DNA of 28,148 bases from a virus. Below are positions 12,519 to 27,583 of the stretch, one piece after another. The translations under genes were made by a program, and so were the position numbers. The notes beneath the pieces were generated by a model, which did no database searches, had not been told where the DNA came from, and saw only the letters and a list, made by a program, of their open reading frames with translations. How positions within the stretch are numbered: position 1 is the first letter of the stretch; each line of letters opens with the position of its first letter. The DNA lies in IMG/VR virus record IMGVR_UViG_3300008450_000348, positions 1-28,148 of that record; one strand, given 5' to 3'.

Positions 12519-13490
12519 ATGGCCTCTCCGAATCTGAGTGAAATCATCACCACGACCCTGCGCAATCGCACGGGGAAGCTGGCTGACAACGTGACTGAGA
12601 ACAACGCCCTGCTGAAGCGTATGAAGCAGCGCGGCACCGTGAAGCCCGCATCGGGCGGTCGCACCATCGTCCAGGAACTGGAATACGCCGAGAACGTCAC
12701 GTTCCAGCGTTATTCCGGCTATGAGATTCTGAACATCTCGCCCTCGGATGTTCTGACTGCGGCTGAGTTTGACTGGAAACAGGCGGCGGTTAACGTCTCC
12801 ATCTCCGGTCTGGAGCAAATGCAGAACAGCGGTTCGGATGCGATTATTGACCTTCTCGGGTCGCGCATCAAAAACGCTGAGAAGACCATGGCGAACAACA
12901 TTGCTTCGGATGTTTACTCGAACGGCACTGCGTCGGGCGGTAAGCAGATCGGTGGCCTGCAACTGCTTGTGGCCGATGATCCGACCACGGGCACCGTCGG
13001 CGGCATCAATCGTGCGTCGTGGACCTTCTGGCGTAACCAGAAGTATCAAGCGACCTCGGATGGTGGTTCGGCGGCTTCGGCCTCGAATATCCAGCGCTAC
13101 ATGAACACGCTCTATCTGCGTTGCTCGCGTGGTTCGGATCGCCCTGACTTCATCGTCGCGGACAACACCTATTACCAGTTCTACTGGAACTCGCTTCAGG
13201 CGATCCAGCGTATCTCGCAAACCGACACCGGCGAAGCGGGCTATGCCAACCTGAAGTTCATGGGCGCTGACGTTGTGTTTGACGGTGGTTACGGTGGGGC
13301 CTGCCCGACCAACCACATGTACTTCCTGAACACGCAGTACATTCACTTCCGTCCGCATTCGCAGCGTAACTTTGTGGCGCTGGAAGGCAAGGAATCGGTC
13401 AACCAGGATGCGATGGTCAAGCCCCTCGTGTTCATGGGCAACATGACCCTTTCCAATGCCTTCCTGCAAGGCGTCCTGTTCCAAGACTAA
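12519..13490 (+). CDS. major capsid protein
   Basis: It encodes 323 residues with a strong leader (aaaggaacagaggt). It starts N-L-S-E-I-I-T-T-T-L-R-N-R-T-G-K-L, followed by N-N-A-L-L-K-R-M-K-Q-R-G. This is the N-terminal arm seen in major capsid proteins of alphaproteobacterial podoviruses and related phages, expected to have an HK97-type fold. W-T-F-W-R-N-Q-K-Y and P-D-F-I-V-A-D-N-T-Y-Y fit the same group. It lies between scaffold and decoration genes and is followed by a terminator that should keep its message abundant. Codon choice is noticeably more uniform than in the neighbours, fitting high expression. Confidence 0.93.
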   Translation: MASPNLSEIITTTLRNRTGKLADNVTENNALLKRMKQRGTVKPASGGRTIVQELEYAENVTFQRYSGYEILNISPSDVLTAAEFDWKQAAVNVSISGLEQMQNSGSDAIIDLLGSRIKNAEKTMANNIASDVYSNGTASGGKQIGGLQLLVADDPTTGTVGGINRASWTFWRNQKYQATSDGGSAASASNIQRYMNTLYLRCSRGSDRPDFIVADNTYYQFYWNSLQAIQRISQTDTGEAGYANLKFMGADVVFDGGYGGACPTNHMYFLNTQYIHFRPHSQRNFVALEGKESVNQDAMVKPLVFMGNMTLSNAFLQGVLFQD

Positions 13491-13511: not shown

Positions 13512-13799
13512 ATGGCTTCCACTGCTGCTACGGTCTTTGCGACCACTCCGTCTCTTGGTGTTGACCTTGACTCCAAGTCCTCGACTGCCGCGTTTGCGAC
13601 GAACACGACCGTTCGCGCCAATGATGGCCGTCTTCACCTGTATGCCCGTGCGTCGGAAGCCCTTGGCTCTACCGACAACATCAAGATCGGGACCAGCGGT
13701 TCTGCGTCGTCTGACGCGGGATCCGGTGGTTTCACCGTGAATACCACGGGTGGCGTTACTGCCGGGCAATACTTTTTCGCCAAGCAAACCGCTATCTAA
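13512..13799 (+). CDS. head decoration-like protein
   Basis: It encodes 95 residues with Shine-Dalgarno aaaggag before the ATG. It is composed of short Ser/Thr/Ala/Gly strands (T-T-V-R-A-N-D-G-R-L-H-L-Y-A-R-A) and ends G-Q-Y-F-F-A-K-Q-T-A-I. Small beta proteins directly after the capsid gene usually bind the outside of the shell as trimers. It is the last gene before the terminator, so it should be co-expressed with the capsid protein. The exact family is not recognised. Confidence 0.65.
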   Translation: MASTAATVFATTPSLGVDLDSKSSTAAFATNTTVRANDGRLHLYARASEALGSTDNIKIGTSGSASSDAGSGGFTVNTTGGVTAGQYFFAKQTAI

Positions 13800-13836
13800 C
13801 CGGGCCTAGCCTCCACTGGGTCTAGGTGGTAGCTTG

Positions 13837-13867
13837 AGGGCGTTGGGCTTCGGCCTGACGCCCTTTT
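13837..13867 (+). terminator. UUCG hairpin terminator after the capsid genes
   Basis: agggcgt (13837-13843) pairs with acgccct (13858-13864). Between them, tg-ggc-TTCG-gcc-tg extends the stem through two wobble pairs to a stable UUCG tetraloop. The run tttt (13864-13867) follows. It separates the capsid/decoration genes from the cargo genes. A second, weaker inverted repeat (cctag/ctagg, 13805-13809 and 13822-13826) lies just upstream. Confidence 0.85.
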
Positions 13868-13882
13868 GCTATGGAGGTAGCA

Positions 13883-14071
13883 ATGACAGATTGGCGTCTG
13901 ATAGACGAAAACACCCCAAAAGACCGTCGCATTTTGCTTTGCAATGGAAAGGTGGTCGCGTGTGGAAGATGGGTTGAGGGACTGTACCAGCGCGGTTGGC
14001 GTCTGGACGACGGAAAGGTCCATCATGTCACGCATTGGTCCCCGATTACGCATCCGTCGGTGTTGGGGTAG
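13883..14071 (+). CDS. DUF551-like small protein
   Basis: It encodes 62 residues from ATG 13883, preceded by a perfect ggagg. The in-frame ATG at 13871 contains that motif and is not the start. The layout W-R-L-I-D-E-N-T-P-K-D-R-R-I-L-L at the N-terminus and V-T-H-W-S-P-I at the C-terminus matches the small DUF551 family frequent in phages (function unknown, one beta-rich domain). It is the first gene after the capsid terminator. Confidence 0.65.
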   Translation: MTDWRLIDENTPKDRRILLCNGKVVACGRWVEGLYQRGWRLDDGKVHHVTHWSPITHPSVLG

Positions 14072-14074
14072 CGA

Positions 14075-14395
14075 GTGTCAGTTATCAAATGCCCGGAGAA
14101 GCGGAGACGCATCCGGATTTCACTTTGGACCGCGCAAGGTGGTCTTTGTGCGCTGTGCTTGAAACCAGTCGCGCATCCCGACGACCCTATGCCGATGAAT
14201 CACCCAGACGGCCCGTCGTTGGATCACGTTGTCCCAAAAGCAGCGGGCGGGCGGAACCATAACAATCTGAGCTTAACGCATCGGGCTTGTAACACTAAAA
14301 AGTCAGATAGCGCCCCAGACAGGGACCATCGAACAGCGCTAATGGTCATTAAGGCGCGGACTAAGGCCGAATGGAAAAAGCGGGTTTCCCGATGA
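14075..14395 (+). CDS. HNH endonuclease
   Basis: It encodes 106 residues from GTG 14075. The beta-beta-alpha-metal core is visible: C25-x2-C28 zinc pair, S-L-D-H-V-V-P-K at 48-55 with the catalytic His 51, an Asn in N-H-N-N-L at 61-65, and H69 with C72-N73 (zinc and HNH end). Free-standing HNH proteins in phages act as homing enzymes or in packaging/DNA processing. With terL far upstream and no adjacent intron visible, a homing or mobile role is plausible but not shown. Its stop overlaps the next start as ATGA. Confidence 0.85.
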   Translation: MSVIKCPEKRRRIRISLWTAQGGLCALCLKPVAHPDDPMPMNHPDGPSLDHVVPKAAGGRNHNNLSLTHRACNTKKSDSAPDRDHRTALMVIKARTKAEWKKRVSR

Positions 14396-15822
14396 TTAAC
14401 GTCGTCTCTGTCCGCGTCGGGACAAAATACCCGGCTGAATACGTCCACACACTCCATGACATGATCGCCCGGCATCTAGGCGAAGATCAGCGGCATTGGT
14501 GCCTCACGGATGATCCTGAGAGCCTTCCTGACGGCATTGAGGCGATCCCGCATAACCCTGACTTGCCCGGTTGGTGGCAGAAGGTGTTTCTGTTCTCGCC
14601 GGACATGCCATGGAACGCAGGCGAGCCGGTTCTCTATATGGACTTGGATGTATGCGTCACAGGCCGGTTGGAGGACTTGCCCGATGGCATCATTCAGGAC
14701 TGGCATTGGCCTTGCTACAACTCGTCAGTGATGAAGTGGAAACATGGCGACCATGCTCAAATCTGGTCGCGGTTCACGCTTGATGTGATTGATGCTCCGT
14801 CCCCTCGTTTAGGACCGTACTTGCCCTCTGGACAGGTCAATGGCGGGGACCAGGAATGGATCACCAGCGTCAGCCAATGGGAGACGTTTCCGGCTGAATG
14901 GTTTGTCTCGTATCGCACGGCAACGGGCTGGCCTGCGGACAAGGCCAAGGCGGTTATCTTCCATGGGTCCCCAAAGCCGCATGAGATTGATCAGGGCTGG
15001 GTTCCCGGTGTGTGGAAGGTCGGCGGACACACGGCGTTCCCTGAACTCAAGGGAATGAACGTCTCGCATGATTTTGCCTATGCCAATGTGCGGGCGAACG
15101 TGCTGCGTGATGTTCCGTGGTTCTCAGGGCATCCTGAGCGCAAGGGAACGGTGGTTCTGGTTGGCGGTGGTCCATCCATGAAAGACAGCTTGCCAGCCAT
15201 ACGCGGCCACAAGCGGAACGGTGCGCGCATTGTCACGGTCAATAACGCCCTGACCTATCTGCATGATCGAGGGATTACGCCTCATTCTCATGTGATGCTT
15301 GATGCGCGGGAAGAAAATGCGGGCATGGTGTTTAATGCGCCAAAATCCGTGCGCTATTTCCTCGCTTCGCAGGTGCATCCATGCGTGTTTGACGCTCTAT
15401 CTGGGCATGATGTTGTTTTATGGCACAACGGCATGGGCGACGGGTCGGACCTCATGGAGATTGTGCAACCATGGTTTGACGAGGGGCCGGATCAAAGGCC
15501 GGTGGTTCTGGTTCCAGGGGGCGGGACGGTTGGTCTTCGCGCGCTCAATCTGGTCTGGTTGTCGGGCTATCGGAAGGTCCATCTGTATGGCTTTGATAGC
15601 TGCTACCATGAGGGTCAGCATCATGCTTACGGGCAGGCATTGAACGACGGTGAGCCGGTTCAGGAGGTCGTGCTCATGGACAAGAAATACATAGCGGCCC
15701 GATGGATGATCCGGCAGGCTATGGAGTTTCAGGATCAATACCGGATGCTAACGGAGGAAGGCGTCAAGGTCGTGGTTCACGGCAAGGGGCTTATCCCTGA
15801 CATGTGGAGGCTCATGCGGTGA
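14392..15822 (+). CDS. glycosyltransferase fused to DUF115/MptE-like domain
   Basis: It encodes 476 residues from ATG 14392 (ATGA overlap); an upstream ATG at 14371 lies inside the HNH gene. Residues 1-215 resemble a GT-A glycosyltransferase: W-W-Q-K-V-F-L-F at 61-68, Y-M-D-L-D-V at 82-87 with the D-x-D metal site, G-G-D-Q-E-W at 151-156 and H-G-S-P-K-P at 191-196. Residues 250-476 resemble the DUF115/MptE-like Rossmann domain of Maf-type flagellin-glycosylation factors: V-L-V-G-G-G-P-S-M at 255-263, V-N-N-A-L at 283-287, and G-G-G-T-V-G-L-R-A with H-L-Y-G-F-D at 376-402. It probably attaches or prepares a sugar. The acceptor (virion, DNA or host glycan) is unknown. Confidence 0.75.
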   Translation: MINVVSVRVGTKYPAEYVHTLHDMIARHLGEDQRHWCLTDDPESLPDGIEAIPHNPDLPGWWQKVFLFSPDMPWNAGEPVLYMDLDVCVTGRLEDLPDGIIQDWHWPCYNSSVMKWKHGDHAQIWSRFTLDVIDAPSPRLGPYLPSGQVNGGDQEWITSVSQWETFPAEWFVSYRTATGWPADKAKAVIFHGSPKPHEIDQGWVPGVWKVGGHTAFPELKGMNVSHDFAYANVRANVLRDVPWFSGHPERKGTVVLVGGGPSMKDSLPAIRGHKRNGARIVTVNNALTYLHDRGITPHSHVMLDAREENAGMVFNAPKSVRYFLASQVHPCVFDALSGHDVVLWHNGMGDGSDLMEIVQPWFDEGPDQRPVVLVPGGGTVGLRALNLVWLSGYRKVHLYGFDSCYHEGQHHAYGQALNDGEPVQEVVLMDKKYIAARWMIRQAMEFQDQYRMLTEEGVKVVVHGKGLIPDMWRLMR

Positions 15823-16394
15823 GGGCGTTTGATGGGCTTTGGTGGCCTGATTCTGACCGGAGGGGCCGTCCTGCGATTGTCTCAGGGTGTGCCATGGCTA
15901 TGCCGGTCGTTCTGCCGCTTGTGAAAGAGAAGGGCGTCTGTGTGCAAGCCGGTGGCAACGTGGGTGTGTATCCGAAAGCCCTTTCCGGTGTGTTTGGGCG
16001 CGTTCTGACGTTTGAGCCGGACCCTGACAATCTGGCATGTCTGGAGCGGAACGTGACGGAGGGAAACGTCATGATCTGGCGCGCGGCATTGGGGAGCGAA
16101 AAAGGCTCATGCGGCATGGACCATATCGAACCGGACAACTGCGGAGCGCACAAGGTCACGGACGGGGGCTCTATCCCGGTCATGTCGATCGATAGTCTGG
16201 AACTGGACCGATGCGACCTGATCTGGCTGGACATAGAGGGGGCGGAAGCGCAAGCGATTTGCGGCGCGATGGCGACAATCGAAAAGTTTTCGCCTATAAT
16301 CGTTCTGGAGGAGAAGGGATTAGGCGCGAAGGCCGCGCTTCCCGGCTACCGACAGGTTAACAGGATTGGCAACGACACGGTGTATATGAAATGA
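15819..16394 (+). CDS. FkbM-type SAM-dependent methyltransferase
   Basis: It encodes 191 residues from GTG 15819, which overlaps the previous stop (GTGA) and has ggagg eight bases upstream. Motif I is V-Q-A-G-G-N-V-G-V-Y at 42-51, with the acidic ligand in T-F-E-P-D at 64-68. L-I-W-L-D-I-E-G-A-E at 134-143 and V-L-E-E-K at 162-166 match the FkbM family, which O-methylates sugars and small molecules. The first Gly-Ala usually seen as D-x-G is A-G-G here, a mild change. Directly following a glycosyltransferase-like gene, it is a good candidate to methylate the same glycan. Confidence 0.82.
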   Translation: MRAFDGLWWPDSDRRGRPAIVSGCAMAMPVVLPLVKEKGVCVQAGGNVGVYPKALSGVFGRVLTFEPDPDNLACLERNVTEGNVMIWRAALGSEKGSCGMDHIEPDNCGAHKVTDGGSIPVMSIDSLELDRCDLIWLDIEGAEAQAICGAMATIEKFSPIIVLEEKGLGAKAALPGYRQVNRIGNDTVYMK

Positions 16395-16897
16395 GCGAGC
16401 CCGATAACGTCATCCCGCTTTTCTACCTGAAGCCCGTCAAGAATGAGTACCAGACGGAAGCCCTTGGCCGTGAGGTTTGGGAGGAAAAGGAATACGTCGA
16501 GATTATCGTTCCAGGGGATCGCAATGCGGTCGTTCATGAGCGTGTAAAGCAGGCGCACAAGGATCGGTGGCCTCGCCAGTATCTTGCCTTCACGCAAAGC
16601 CGCGAAACCCCGGTTGACGGAACGCCGCTTGAGGAGTGGCCGGTGGTGAACTCTGCGATGGTGATGGAACTCAAATCGTCGCACGTTCGCACGGTGGAAC
16701 AACTTGCGGGCCTGTCGGATGGCCAACTGAGCAAGACGGTTTCCATGGGTGGGTTTGAACTGCGTCGGAAGGCTCAACTGTTCGTGGAGGGCAAGAGCGA
16801 ATCGGATGCGCGGATTGCTGACCTTGAGGCGAAACTTGCGGCCCTGACGGCTGCGATGGAAGCGAAATCGGAACCTGTCGCGGAGGCTGCGGAATGA
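16391..16897 (+). CDS. conserved phage connector-module protein
   Basis: It encodes 168 residues with an ATGA overlap at the start. The N-terminal domain is beta-rich (E-Y-V-E-I-I-V-P-G-D-R). A helix-hairpin-like segment follows (H-V-R-T-V-E-Q-L-A-G-L-S-D, then F-E-L-R-R-K-A-Q-L-F), and residues about 135-160 form a coiled coil. I recall proteins of this layout just before the head-tail adaptor in related podoviruses, without known function. Its end overlaps the next gene by four bases. Confidence 0.65.
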   Translation: MSEPDNVIPLFYLKPVKNEYQTEALGREVWEEKEYVEIIVPGDRNAVVHERVKQAHKDRWPRQYLAFTQSRETPVDGTPLEEWPVVNSAMVMELKSSHVRTVEQLAGLSDGQLSKTVSMGGFELRRKAQLFVEGKSESDARIADLEAKLAALTAAMEAKSEPVAEAAE

Positions 16898-17891: not shown

Positions 17892-18088
17892 TGACGACGC
17901 CCGCTCTTTCCATCTCCGATATGAAGAATGAGCAGAACTTCCGGCGACGGTTGAACACACTGCTTTCGGCCTATGCGCCGGGGTATGGGTCAGCCCTTCC
18001 GTCTGCCGAGAACAGCCCTGATGGGCGATTGTTCTATGTCGGAAGCCAGGGTTATCAGCAACGCGGCGGAACGTGGGTGGCGCTATGA
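17891..18088 (+). CDS. small protein between adaptor and hub
   Basis: It encodes 65 residues, starting in a TAATG overlap. An N-terminal helix (M-K-N-E-Q-N-F-R-R-R-L-N-T-L-L) is followed by D-G-R-L-F-Y-V-G and a final G-G-T-W-V-A-L. The end-motif style is common in short phage tail-connector proteins. It overlaps the hub start by four bases. The function is unknown but probably structural. Confidence 0.55.
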   Translation: MTTPALSISDMKNEQNFRRRLNTLLSAYAPGYGSALPSAENSPDGRLFYVGSQGYQQRGGTWVAL

Positions 18089-19776
18089 GGCAGTCTGTTC
18101 AAGCCTATGGGCGTCAACCCTATAGAGCGGTCACACAACGCCGTGTGACGGTGGGTGGCGCTATTCCGGCTCCGGTCGGTGGATGGGATGCGCAAAGCCC
18201 TCTGGCGAACATGCCTGCGCAAAACGCAGTGACGCTGGATAACTTCATCCCTCGCGCTGGATATGTGGAACTGCGCAAGGGCTATATCCCGTGGCAAACC
18301 GGACTGGGCTTGCCGGTGGAGACGGTGATGGCATGGCGTCCGGCTTCTCCGACCACGGCTGATCATATCTTTGGCGCGTCGGGTGCGTTCATCTACGATA
18401 TGTCAAATCAGGACGGAACGCCGTCTGCGGTGTATTCGGCGGCTTCAAGCCCTCGCTGGCAATGGATCAACTTTGCCAATGACGCAGGGGTTTTTCTGTA
18501 TGCCGTGAACGGTGCGCAGGACCCTGTGTATTATGACGGCAGCACGTTTCAGGACACGGTGATTACGGGATCGTCTGGCGTTATCACGCTGGACCCGCGC
18601 ACTCTCGTTGACGTGATGGACCACAAGGGCCGCTTGTTCCTCTTGCAAGAGGATTCCATGCGCGTCTGGTATCTGGACCCGTTTGCCATTCAGGGAGAGG
18701 CGAACCTTCTCGACCTGGGGCCTATCTTTGATAAGGGCGGGTCGATTCTTTGCCAAGCCACATGGACGGTGGATGGCGGGTCCGGTGCCGATGATCTGGC
18801 GGTGTGGGTTACGACACAAGGTCAGGTGGCTGTTTATCAGGGCGTGGACCCTAGCAATGCCGATGACTGGGCTCTTGTCGGTGTCTATGACGTGGGCTTC
18901 CCACTGTCGCGCCGTAGCCTGATCAAATACGGCTCCGATTTGATGGTCCTGACAACAGATGGCGTTGTGCCGCTGTCTCAGGCCCTGAAACTGGACCGCG
19001 CGCAAGAGAACCTTGTCGCCCTGACGCAGCGTATCCAGAACGCTTTTCAGATGGCAACCACGCGGTATCGTAACAACTTCGGCTGGGAAGGCTGCTTCTA
19101 TCAGCGCGGCTCGCTGGCCATCTTCAACGTGCCGATTACCGAACTGGCCACGTCGGAACAATACGTCCAGAACGTCCAGACAGGTGCATGGTGCCGGTTC
19201 ACGGGACTGAATGCCTACTCATGGGCGATTGCCAATGACAGGGCTTATTTCGGGGCATCGGACGGCATTTACCTTTGGGATGAAGGCTATGCCGACAACG
19301 AAACGAACATCGTAGCGGACCTGAAAACCGCGTTTAACTATTTCGGCTCGCGCGGGTCGCTCAAGAAGTTTGAGATGATCCAGCCTATCCTGAGAATCGG
19401 CAACTCGATTGCGCCTGCTATCGAGATTGTGACGGACTTCAAGGAGCGTGTACCTACGTCGGTCCCGACATTGATCGAGACGACGGGCGCGCTTTGGGAT
19501 GAGGCGCTTTGGGATGATGGTTTGTGGTCGCCATCGACCGAAACCCGCGACGGATGGACCAGTGCGACGGGCCTTGGCTATTGCGGCTCTGTTCGCATGA
19601 GGGTTGAGGTATCTGCGTTCACATACGTTGACCTTGGCGTGACGGATGCAATCTCAGTGGCCAGCGCGGCCAATGATGTGCTTATCGTCCAGACACCAAC
19701 CCGAACGACAAGCGCCCCGGTTGAGGTGATTGCGTTCAATATCAAGTACCAGAACCAGACAGGCGGGCAGCTTTGA
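18085..19776 (+). CDS. tail hub / DNA-stabilisation protein, P22 gp10-like
   Basis: It encodes 563 residues from ATG 18085 (ATGA overlap), chosen over the in-frame start at 18073. Repeated Trp/Tyr-rich blades (P-R-W-Q-W-I-N-F, V-Y-Y-D-G-S-T-F, W-C-R-F-T-G-L-N-A-Y-S-W) suggest a beta-propeller. Its place right after the gp4-like adaptor matches the gp10 hub that plugs the portal and carries tail fibres or spikes. The N-terminal P-V-G-G-W-D-A-Q-S-P-L-A-N and D-N-F-I-P-R motif recurs in hub proteins of this type. Assignment is by layout and position. Confidence 0.75.
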   Translation: MRQSVQAYGRQPYRAVTQRRVTVGGAIPAPVGGWDAQSPLANMPAQNAVTLDNFIPRAGYVELRKGYIPWQTGLGLPVETVMAWRPASPTTADHIFGASGAFIYDMSNQDGTPSAVYSAASSPRWQWINFANDAGVFLYAVNGAQDPVYYDGSTFQDTVITGSSGVITLDPRTLVDVMDHKGRLFLLQEDSMRVWYLDPFAIQGEANLLDLGPIFDKGGSILCQATWTVDGGSGADDLAVWVTTQGQVAVYQGVDPSNADDWALVGVYDVGFPLSRRSLIKYGSDLMVLTTDGVVPLSQALKLDRAQENLVALTQRIQNAFQMATTRYRNNFGWEGCFYQRGSLAIFNVPITELATSEQYVQNVQTGAWCRFTGLNAYSWAIANDRAYFGASDGIYLWDEGYADNETNIVADLKTAFNYFGSRGSLKKFEMIQPILRIGNSIAPAIEIVTDFKERVPTSVPTLIETTGALWDEALWDDGLWSPSTETRDGWTSATGLGYCGSVRMRVEVSAFTYVDLGVTDAISVASAANDVLIVQTPTRTTSAPVEVIAFNIKYQNQTGGQL

Positions 19777-20213
19777 GGCTGGCAACCGGCTTTGATGCCG
19801 TTGTCGCGCAATGGGTTGCGGACAGGATTCCAGGCGTTGACGGCTTCGGCCCTTGTGCTGCGTTAGGCGTTGTGGACACGCAAGACAATCTTGTCGCCGG
19901 GGTGGTTTTTCACGATTATCAGCCACAGTACGCCAATATACAGGTGAGTTTTGCCTCAGAACGGGCGGATTGGTTGACGCCTCGCCTTCTGCGGTCTATC
20001 CTAAGCTATCCATTCCAGCAGCTTGGAGTGGCGAGGATCACGACGCTAACCCCGAAGCGTAATCGGGCCGCTCGCCAGTTCCTCCGAAAGTTCGGGTTTT
20101 TCCATGAGGGAACAATCCGTAAAGGCTTCGGAGATGACGACGCGATAGTCTCCGGCCTGCTTAAGACAGAGTGGTTGGAGCATCGTCTGAATCATGGGAA
20201 AACCGACACCTAG
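19773..20213 (+). CDS. GNAT-family acetyltransferase
   Basis: It encodes 146 residues; the best start is TTG 19773, overlapping the hub stop as TTGA. The later strand/helix arrangement R-I-T-T-L-T-P-K-R-N-R-A-A-R-Q-F-L-R-K-F-G-F ends in the A-x-x-x-x-x-x-F-G-F pattern of GCN5-related acyltransferases. The acetyl-CoA loop appears as P-K-R-N-R-A, a reduced form of the usual Q-x-x-G-x-G/A. H-D-Y near residue 46 may be substrate-facing. Such genes recur between tail genes of related podoviruses, with unknown substrate (virion or host protein). Confidence 0.75.
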   Translation: MRLATGFDAVVAQWVADRIPGVDGFGPCAALGVVDTQDNLVAGVVFHDYQPQYANIQVSFASERADWLTPRLLRSILSYPFQQLGVARITTLTPKRNRAARQFLRKFGFFHEGTIRKGFGDDDAIVSGLLKTEWLEHRLNHGKTDT

Positions 20214-26099: not shown

Positions 26100-26426
26100 A
26101 TGACCGACGTAATCCGCAAGCAATACAGTCAGCTTACGGCGGCAACCACGCCGACTGACACGGACCTTATCGCGATCTATCAGGGCGCTTCGCCTTTGAA
26201 GGTCATCACATGGGCTAACTTTCTGGAGGCTATCGTGGCCGAACTTGGCGTATTGGTGGACAGTGAGGGGAACCCGTTTAACCCTGACAGTTACGATCAG
26301 ACATTCGCGTATGTGGATGGGAACCTCTCGACCATTACCGCAACGGACGGCGTGACGACGTGGGTGCAAACCTACACTTATGACACCGACGGCGTAGCCA
26401 CGATCAGCAACTGGGTGGTTCAATGA
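26100..26426 (+). CDS. fibre-associated small protein
   Basis: It encodes 108 residues with ggggctgcg before the ATG. It begins with S-Q-L-T-A-A-T-T-P-T-D-T-D-L-I-A-I-Y-Q-G, a phrase that recurs at the start of phage fibre or fibre-linker proteins. It ends with two beta hairpins (F-A-Y-V-D-G-N-L-S-T-I, T-W-V-Q-T-Y-T-Y-D). It sits between a fibre and an esterase and overlaps the latter by four bases, so it may connect the two. Confidence 0.6.
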   Translation: MTDVIRKQYSQLTAATTPTDTDLIAIYQGASPLKVITWANFLEAIVAELGVLVDSEGNPFNPDSYDQTFAYVDGNLSTITATDGVTTWVQTYTYDTDGVATISNWVVQ

Positions 26427-27583
26427 GCATTTCCAGCACGATCAAATCCAACGAGGTTCTGAAGGTCATTACGCGGGTCGATCTGGTCCCTGAGAAGAAA
26501 ATCACAAAGGTGGTTTGCATCGGGGATTCGGTCACTGAGGGGTATTACGACGGCTCGCCGTGGCCGAACCGTTATTCGTGGCTGAACGGTGGCTATGTCA
26601 TCTCTGCGAATTACGCAGACGGCGGCAAGACCTCAACGCAAATCCTGGCCGAACAAGTCCCGCTGGCATTGGCATCGGGGGCCTCACACTGCTTCACGCA
26701 GTTTGGCACGAACGACATTTCGCAGTCCGTCCCGATGACGACGACGCGCGCCAACGCCGTGTCGATCTGGTCCGCCTTGCGTGCGGGCGGGATCGAGCCA
26801 ATCCATGTCGGATTGCAGCCGGTCGATAACACCGGCAACTATTCCAAAGCCTGCGCCTTCAACCTGTGGGCCAAGCTTTACTGCCGCCTGAATAACATCC
26901 TGTATGTGGACATCATGCCCCTGCTTTCGGCAGGTGGTTCGGGCACATACAAGACGGGTCTGGGGTACGATACCGTCCATCCGTCCAGTGTCGGGATGAA
27001 GGTCATCGCTTCTCAGGCCAGTGAGCAAACGCTGCAAAGCTATGCGCTTACTCCGCTTCTTGCCGAGGCGGATGACAGGTTCTTTTCGGCAACTCCAAAC
27101 ACGATTGCTCTCAACGGCAACGCCATCTCGTTTACAGGCGGCACCCCTCCGACCGGATATACCCAAGTTGGCAGCGGGGGTGTTCTGTCGGTAGAGCCCC
27201 CCGATGCTGATGGGTTCGGGTCATGGCTCCGCGCGACCCTGACGGCAGATACGGGCTTTGGCTTCAACTGTACGGCACAATCGCTCTCGTCGCTTGGCTG
27301 GGCCGTTGGAGATACTATCGGCATTGGCTACCGTGTCCGGTGGGTCGATAGTGCGCAAGCCTTGACGCTTTCTGCGAATACGACGGGGGGAAGCACGCAG
27401 CTTTTTGCCATGTTCAACGAGCAAGGCGGGACAAGCACGGGCGACGATATGTACGTCTATACAGAAGGCGCAATCCCGGCTGGCACAACGAATATCAGTT
27501 TCCAGTGGACCGGAACCGGCACTGGCTATTTTGAAGTCAATCGCCCTATCATCATTAACCTGACGCAACTGGGACTGGCCTGA
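26423..27583 (+). CDS. SGNH/GDSL esterase, likely tail-associated
   Basis: It encodes 386 residues. SGNH blocks are clear: I-G-D-S-V-T at 33-38 (nucleophile S36), G68 in A-D-G-G-K, G-T-N-D at 95-98 (Asn 97), and D183 with H186 in Y-D-T-V-H-P-S. Residues about 225-386 form a beta-sandwich, probably a carbohydrate-binding or trimerisation module. The family removes acetyl or acyl groups from polysaccharides. Placed next to the fibre genes, it most likely de-esterifies capsule or O-antigen during adsorption. No signal peptide, as expected for a virion protein. Confidence 0.88.
   Translation: MSISSTIKSNEVLKVITRVDLVPEKKITKVVCIGDSVTEGYYDGSPWPNRYSWLNGGYVISANYADGGKTSTQILAEQVPLALASGASHCFTQFGTNDISQSVPMTTTRANAVSIWSALRAGGIEPIHVGLQPVDNTGNYSKACAFNLWAKLYCRLNNILYVDIMPLLSAGGSGTYKTGLGYDTVHPSSVGMKVIASQASEQTLQSYALTPLLAEADDRFFSATPNTIALNGNAISFTGGTPPTGYTQVGSGGVLSVEPPDADGFGSWLRATLTADTGFGFNCTAQSLSSLGWAVGDTIGIGYRVRWVDSAQALTLSANTTGGSTQLFAMFNEQGGTSTGDDMYVYTEGAIPAGTTNISFQWTGTGTGYFEVNRPIIINLTQLGLA

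Follow-up and report, generated by a model that had tools for sequence, protein, structure and literature searches.

A glycosyltransferase-DUF115 fusion and an FkbM methyltransferase as a conserved gene pair beside the head genes of uncultured phages, downstream of a three-hairpin RNA element

Organization of the locus

The 28,148-base IMG/VR record IMGVR_UViG_3300008450_000348, referred to here over its whole length as the window, comes from an uncultured bacterial virus whose Mx8-type head module comprises terminase, portal, capsid and SU10-type adaptor and which also has the recombination genes Erf and NinB. The subject of this analysis is a locus within the head region that encodes a GT-A-type glycosyltransferase (GT) domain fused to a DUF115/MptE-like domain, followed by an FkbM-family methyltransferase and preceded by three RNA hairpins. 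An earlier interpretation made without database searches (the sequence-only reading) had placed four plus-strand genes after the capsid terminator and before the connector genes. These open reading frames (ORFs) were confirmed, and 4-base overlaps link the last three into a chain. The features of the locus are as follows.

12519..13490, + strand: major capsid protein (Mx8-type), PHROG_9953 major head protein, E 7.6e-125
13512..13799, + strand: p95, probable capsid decoration protein of 95 aa, between the capsid gene and the terminator
13802..13823, + strand: RNA hairpin A, 8-bp stem, 6-nt loop CCTCCA at 13810-13815
13836..13867, + strand: intrinsic terminator hairpin, 13-bp stem, TTCG loop and T run, identified by fold and covariation
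13866..13883, + strand: RNA hairpin B, 6-nt loop TGGAGG at 13872-13877, identical with the Shine-Dalgarno sequence for the first gene of the cassette
13883..14071, + strand: DUF551-like small ORF of 62 aa, an optional neighbour (Pfam DUF551, E 0.014, below cut-off)
14075..14395, + strand: HNH endonuclease, an optional neighbour (PF01844, E 3.6e-5, over cut-off; PHROG_338, E 2.8e-11)
14392..15822, + strand: fusion of a GT-A (GT8/glycogenin-like) domain with a DUF115/MptE-like domain (PHROG_1962, PF01973)
15819..16394, + strand: FkbM-family S-adenosylmethionine (SAM) methyltransferase with a GTG start (TIGR01444, PF05050)
16391..16897, + strand: connector-side gene of unknown function (PHROG_20268, E 6.6e-21), the right border of the interval in all relatives

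The cultured relatives of the capsid protein include those of Bradyrhizobium phage ppBjS10J-1 (65%) and Mx8 (48%). The frame of the fusion gene opens at 14371, and its homologues begin at the ATG at 14392. Four-base overlaps join the HNH gene to the fusion gene (ATGA at 14392), the fusion gene to the FkbM gene (GTGA at 15819) and the FkbM gene to the connector-side gene (ATGA at 16391), and thus the genes from HNH through the one at 16391 are probably translated together.

The enzyme pair, its distribution and its neighbours

The N-terminal half of the fusion protein matches the glycosyltransferase family PHROG_1962 (residues 13-216, E 1.6e-19) and the C-terminal half matches the MptE-like/DUF115 family PF01973 (residues 258-414, E 6.8e-21), the latter with 75.2 bits against a gathering cut-off of 34.6. 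This gathering score is also passed by proteins of four other contigs (L132, L134, L065 and L135 in our numbering). The DxD motif is D91-L-D93 ('DLD', 14641-14649) and is invariant in 28 aligned relatives, in which the DUF115 motifs GxPS, LDAR, GTVGL and HHAYxQxLND are invariant or nearly so. Over the DUF115 half, the family profile matches Maf of Magnetospirillum (PDB 5mu5) with E 7.8e-7, and the same profile matches MptE (8sd5, E 0.069) and glycogenin (E about 0.1) weakly. An AlphaFold2 model of the fusion has a mean predicted local distance difference test score (pLDDT) of 87.9. Its Foldseek matches include LARGE1 (7.6e-8), Maf (2.3e-7), glycogenin (4.8e-7), the human sialyltransferases ST8SiaIII and ST6GALNAC2 (about 5e-5) and the MptE/HPPK structure 8sd5, with a template modelling (TM) score of 0.65 on the target. 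The protein carries both a DxD within a GT-A fold, as expected of GT-A enzymes, and the Maf_flag10/DUF115 domain that is central in Maf.

The methyltransferase passes the FkbM family cut-offs of TIGR01444 (E 8.8e-17, 61.9 bits against 37.7) and PF05050 (E 2.3e-12, 47.8 bits against 22.7), and its profile matches PDB 2py6 with E 3.8e-9. Its SAM-binding motifs are intact, and QAGxNVG, EP and LDxEG are invariant. Sequence and fold make it almost certain that the first protein is of glycosyltransferase type and the second of methyltransferase type. The GT-A and DUF115 folds and the intact FkbM enzyme named in the sequence-only reading were thus borne out when homology and structure were checked with Pfam, PHROGs, the Maf profile match and AlphaFold/Foldseek, and the link that it drew from DUF115 to flagellin glycosylation holds at the level of the domain only. 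The N-terminal Rossmann-like and C-terminal helical domains of Maf are absent from the window protein, which consists of GT-A and DUF115 only, and its comparison with the NCBIfam flagellin-modification families gave no match. Classification as Maf, and with it a flagellar target by analogy, was rejected because these flanking domains are missing; nor does the window contain a flagellin gene.

A viral collection of 2.9 million contigs was scanned with the fusion, giving 64 loci, and with the capsid protein, giving 80 retained loci, many of them on shared contigs; removal of duplicates left 66 distinct viral contigs bearing the fusion. In these it is nearly always one open frame and, wherever neighbours are present, always lies between a decoration-type gene and the connector-side gene, a recurrence far beyond chance. 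This interval is referred to here as the slot, and a census was taken of the 76 distinct contigs having both of its borders. GT, DUF115 and FkbM occupy 52 of the 76 slots, GT and DUF115 without FkbM occupy six, DUF115 alone occupies two and 16 are empty. FkbM therefore accompanies the fusion in 52 of 58 slots, and it is found in none of the 18 contigs that lack the fusion. The comparison with relatives lacking the genes, which had been proposed from the sequence, can be drawn with the 16 empty slots, all of which belong to more distant capsid relatives. Three cultured relatives have, by their annotation, no such module in this slot. Between pairs of contigs, the GT, DUF115 and FkbM distances are correlated with the distances seen for capsid, adaptor and tail genes (Spearman 0.74-0.87), a relation that the structural genes also show with one another. 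Because of this fixed synteny and of distances that track the structural genes, the fusion and FkbM are a core gene pair of the clade and not floating cargo. The description of the locus as a cargo cassette is consequently not supported for this pair, and it fits the HNH and DUF551-like genes, which behave as inserts.

Natural fusions extend the picture. A search of cellular genome contigs returned two remote relatives, one from a gammaproteobacterial metagenome-assembled genome (MAG) and one, L135, from a Rhodopila MAG contig that is phage-like. At the same locus, L135 encodes a single 702-aa GT-DUF115-FkbM protein and L065 a single 645-aa GT-DUF115-Methyltransf_24 protein; both contigs are remote relatives of the window phage. 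In L134 the DUF115 protein is longer by about 200 residues at its N terminus, a stretch that appears GT-A-like by eye and has no Pfam support, and L132 and L133 retain DUF115 alone. Two different methyltransferases joined to the same GT-DUF115 unit are the strongest evidence that methylation and sugar transfer would belong to one route, a conclusion supported by co-occurrence and the triple fusions together. As for rarity, the fused form was found once among 289 alphaproteobacterial genomes, on the phage-like contig L135 itself, so that the fusion, supposed in the sequence-only reading to be uncommon, is rare in cellular genomes but common in this phage group. Fused proteins of 685-700 aa are already listed in UniProt as 'MptE-like', from uncultured Caudovirales and without a described role. 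A tblastn search of cultured phages with DUF115 alone returned no match, and nothing relevant was found in the literature on DUF115 in phages.

The other occupants of the slot behave differently. Homologues of the window HNH gene are present in only two of the 76 slots (L010 and L105) and those of the DUF551-like ORF in only a few relatives (L020, L027, L029 and L104), and in other contigs this spot is taken by different HNH families (HNH_3 types), by small ORFs or by a DNA methylase. Homing endonucleases of the HNH kind are marked by that motif and by scattered occurrence at a single intergenic site; the window HNH shows both and is, on sequence grounds, probably a free-standing one beside the module. 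Membership of HNH in the enzyme unit was rejected on its presence in two slots and on the differing HNH families elsewhere. Between the fusion and FkbM genes, many relatives have a conserved family of small ORFs with no Pfam match (L037:8277-8657 and 36 related ORFs elsewhere) that is not present in the window, and in L010 (8089-8763) and L003 a DNA N6/N4 methylase is inserted there.

Some genes further along the window are also of interest. PHROGs labels the 567-aa protein at 18073-19776 'amidase', yet Pfam finds no amidase domain in it and its gene adjoins the adaptor; its position suggests a tail or connector protein, and the label may be a propagated misannotation. The gene that follows (19773-20213) is weakly GNAT acetyltransferase-like, below Pfam cut-offs, and two cultured relatives have an annotated GNAT N-acetyltransferase at the matching position. 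Directly 3' of the tail-collar fibre protein gene, 26423-27583 encodes a GDSL/SGNH lipase-esterase (Pfam E 5.8e-18) that could deacylate a host surface polysaccharide.

The three-hairpin RNA element

Downstream of p95 and ahead of the first gene of the cassette, positions 13802-13883 form hairpin A (loop CCUCCA), a terminator and hairpin B (loop UGGAGG), and what had been described simply as the capsid terminator is the middle of these three. Loop A is the exact complement of loop B, with a duplex energy of -8.6 kcal/mol. Hairpins A and B are both present in 47 of the 62 contigs having the interval, with a loop-to-loop spacing of 61-64 in 46 of the 47; by chance, a stem of at least 4 bp around a 6-nt loop is expected at about 2% of positions. 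Over 37 distinct sequences, stem pairing is kept in 94.9% of cells, as compared to 85.5% in shuffles and at most 59% when the alignment is slid. Compensatory changes occur in 16 pairs, among them nine of the 13 terminator pairs and all four stem B pairs, and stem A covaries around an invariant loop. This covariation is the ground for accepting the terminator hairpin at 13836, which a simple consensus terminator scan missed, that scan being no better than shuffles.

When the viral collection was scanned with two patterns, the element turned up in 39 and 44 contigs, every one of them a known carrier of the locus. Rfam has no family that matches the element at its gathering threshold, and a match to a Brucella small RNA (15 bits) falls far below the cut-off. 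A CsrA site in hairpin B, suggested by the GGA in its hexaloop, is possible and is not favoured, the A before UGGA not being conserved. Inserts occur on either side of the terminator: HNH_3-type genes lie before hairpin A in L006 and L056, and after the terminator, with hairpin B lost, in L002, L007, L024 and L050. The RNA element may be located at a homing site.

Possible targets and relation to known systems

A fused enzyme and a methyltransferase that hold their position across dozens of related viruses, behind a conserved, switch-like RNA element, suggest that a methyl-capped sugar is added to the virus particles themselves or to the host. The reading that we favour, with a probability of about 0.5, is that of a phage-encoded glycosylate-then-methylate module with virion proteins as its target, for which the virion glycosylation loci of mycobacteriophages serve as precedent. 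The module would be expressed late and would glycosylate protein. Its metal-dependent, DxD-bearing GT-A domain would attach the first sugar to a hydroxyl group on a protein of the phage, the DUF115 domain, with its Maf/sialyltransferase-like fold, would add a second sugar or hold the acceptor, and FkbM would O-methylate the glycan as a cap. The terminator, together with CCUCCA/UGGAGG loop pairing at the Shine-Dalgarno sequence, would limit output so that little enzyme is made relative to capsid protein. The donor sugars probably derive from the host, since no CTP_transf_3 or NTP_transferase gene was found in the window record and 16 relatives (17 records, positive controls run, these two families only). 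Thus, of the complete sugar-adding and capping route initially envisaged, the joint route is supported and its completeness is not.

The likeliest acceptor would be a head protein of the same operon, either the capsid protein or, in particular, p95, an abundant and Ser/Thr-rich candidate. Ser and Thr make up 28% of p95 and 15% of the capsid protein. The AlphaFold2 model of p95 is small and beta-rich (pLDDT 85). Its Foldseek matches are individually weak (E>0.1), and the best 12 are all phage or virus capsid chains, mostly decoration or head-fibre proteins (HFTV1, phi29 gp8.5, TW1, T1). The Mx8 gene at this position is annotated 'major virion structural protein'. Proteins of the p95 type accompany the module, whereas relatives without the cassette mostly have a longer, different protein there.

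Several points weigh against this reading. The association of p95 with the cassette is confounded by phylogeny, the cassette-less relatives being more distant. The predicted TM score of the fusion model (0.56) makes the relative placement of its GT-A and DUF115 domains uncertain. Loops A and B are both invariant, which leaves a kissing contact between them without covariation support of its own. Lastly, adjacency to the head genes is circumstantial evidence, since insertion between late genes is also seen for morons and for genes that modify the host.

A more elaborate and tentative version would combine a dedicated virion-glycosylating GT-DUF115-FkbM family with kissing control of a capsid-glycosylation module. 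The CCUCCA/UGGAGG contact would span the capsid terminator and mask the Shine-Dalgarno sequence of the glycosylation operon, acting either in cis, within read-through transcripts, or in trans, through abundant terminated capsid mRNA, and output of the glycosylating enzymes would thereby be inversely tied to capsid mRNA. RNA control of this kind is proposed to be previously undescribed.

An alternative to which we give perhaps half the credence of virion modification is that the enzymes act on the host surface (O-antigen, capsule or flagellin) and block superinfection or change a receptor, as in seroconverting phages. DUF115 is the central domain of the Maf flagellin glycosyltransferases and the profile matches Maf, PHROG_1962 is filed under 'moron, auxiliary metabolic gene and host takeover', the same GT domain occurs singly in P1-like phages, and recombination genes (Erf and NinB) are present in the window phage. 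The genes, however, are translationally chained into the structural operon and co-inherited with it, and the other two Maf domains are absent. Classical seroconversion cassettes (gtrABC) have an adjoining flippase or membrane protein; none was recognised beside these genes.

It is rather unlikely that the DUF115 half acts as a pterin diphosphokinase (MptE) or binds the acceptor without being catalytic, with sugar transfer left to GT-A only. Such a role would agree with the structural match to MptE/HPPK and with the name of the Pfam family, but the profile match to Maf is far better than that to MptE, sialyltransferases are matched as well, and the domain is fused to GT-A and co-occurs with a glycan-type methyltransferase. 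Still less probable is the framing of the sequence-only reading, in which the four genes form a horizontally mobile moron or cargo cassette with no tie to the virion. Slot contents do vary (HNH types, DUF551, small ORFs, DNA methylase) and the module is absent from more distant capsid relatives; the fusion and FkbM, however, are syntenic in nearly all close relatives, with a distance structure like that of capsid genes. Modification of sugars or bases on phage DNA is improbable: glycosylated hypermodified bases occur in some phages, and the slot holds an HNH gene in the window and a DNA methylase in L010 and L003, but the early and late window ORFs scanned gave no recognisable hypermodification gene, whether of base-hydroxylase, thymidylate-synthase-like or other type, the GT resembles glycogenin, LARGE, Maf and sialyltransferases and not T-even DNA glucosyltransferases, and it is encoded by a late gene linked to the capsid.

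Few systems, in a small number of hosts, are known in which phage virions are covalently glycosylated. Were the virion reading true, such modification would extend to a large set of uncultured phages, the hosts of their cultured capsid relatives being Bradyrhizobium, Stenotrophomonas and Myxococcus, and DUF115, known from flagellin, would gain a second role in protein glycosylation. In addition, the covarying terminator and Shine-Dalgarno-loop element offers a directly testable case of possible RNA control between structural and modifying genes.

Among known systems, a precedent comes from mycobacteriophages: capsid and tail-tube proteins are reported to be modified there by glycosyltransferases together with an O-methyltransferase (Freeman et al. 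2023, cited in PMC11600133 and PMC11256854). The loci of Che8, Rita and cluster O likewise pair phage glycosyltransferases with an O-methyltransferase, a pairing seen here as linkage in 52 of 58 slots and as fusion in L135 and L065. They differ in having separate GT genes instead of a GT-A-DUF115 fusion, in belonging to another phage and host group, and in having a demonstrated glycan, where that of the window module is a proposal. Maf (PDB 5mu5; PF01973) shares the central DUF115/Maf_flag10 domain, described as similar to the sialyltransferase Cst-II (PMC11339370), but in the window this domain is fused to an N-terminal GT-A domain in place of the Maf flanking domains, with no flagellin substrate gene nearby. 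Glycogenin/GT8 and LARGE-type enzymes share the GT-A fold with DxD, and LARGE1 likewise has two GT domains per chain; sequence similarity to them is weak, and the second domain of the window protein comes from another fold family. PHROG_1962 (P1 PmgQ, P7 HdmD) is the same GT family as the N-terminal half, although the match covers the GT domain only and no DUF115 part. In comparison with other FkbM O-methyltransferases (TIGR01444/PF05050; 2py6), whose family cut-off it passes with intact SAM motifs, the window member is small, phage-encoded and locked to a GT-DUF115 partner. At the RNA level, the alphaproteobacterial anti-Shine-Dalgarno small RNAs alpha-r14 and NfeR1 (PMC10746234) similarly have a conserved CCUCC-type loop on a hairpin of variable stem. 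Membership in alpha-r14, which has three hairpins each with CCUCCUCCC, was rejected on the lack of an Rfam match and on the single CCUCCA hairpin of the window, which is followed in cis by a terminator and a complementary hairpin with the Shine-Dalgarno sequence in its loop. Taken together, phage-encoded glycan modification is already known, and what is new here is the architecture, the synteny and the RNA leader.

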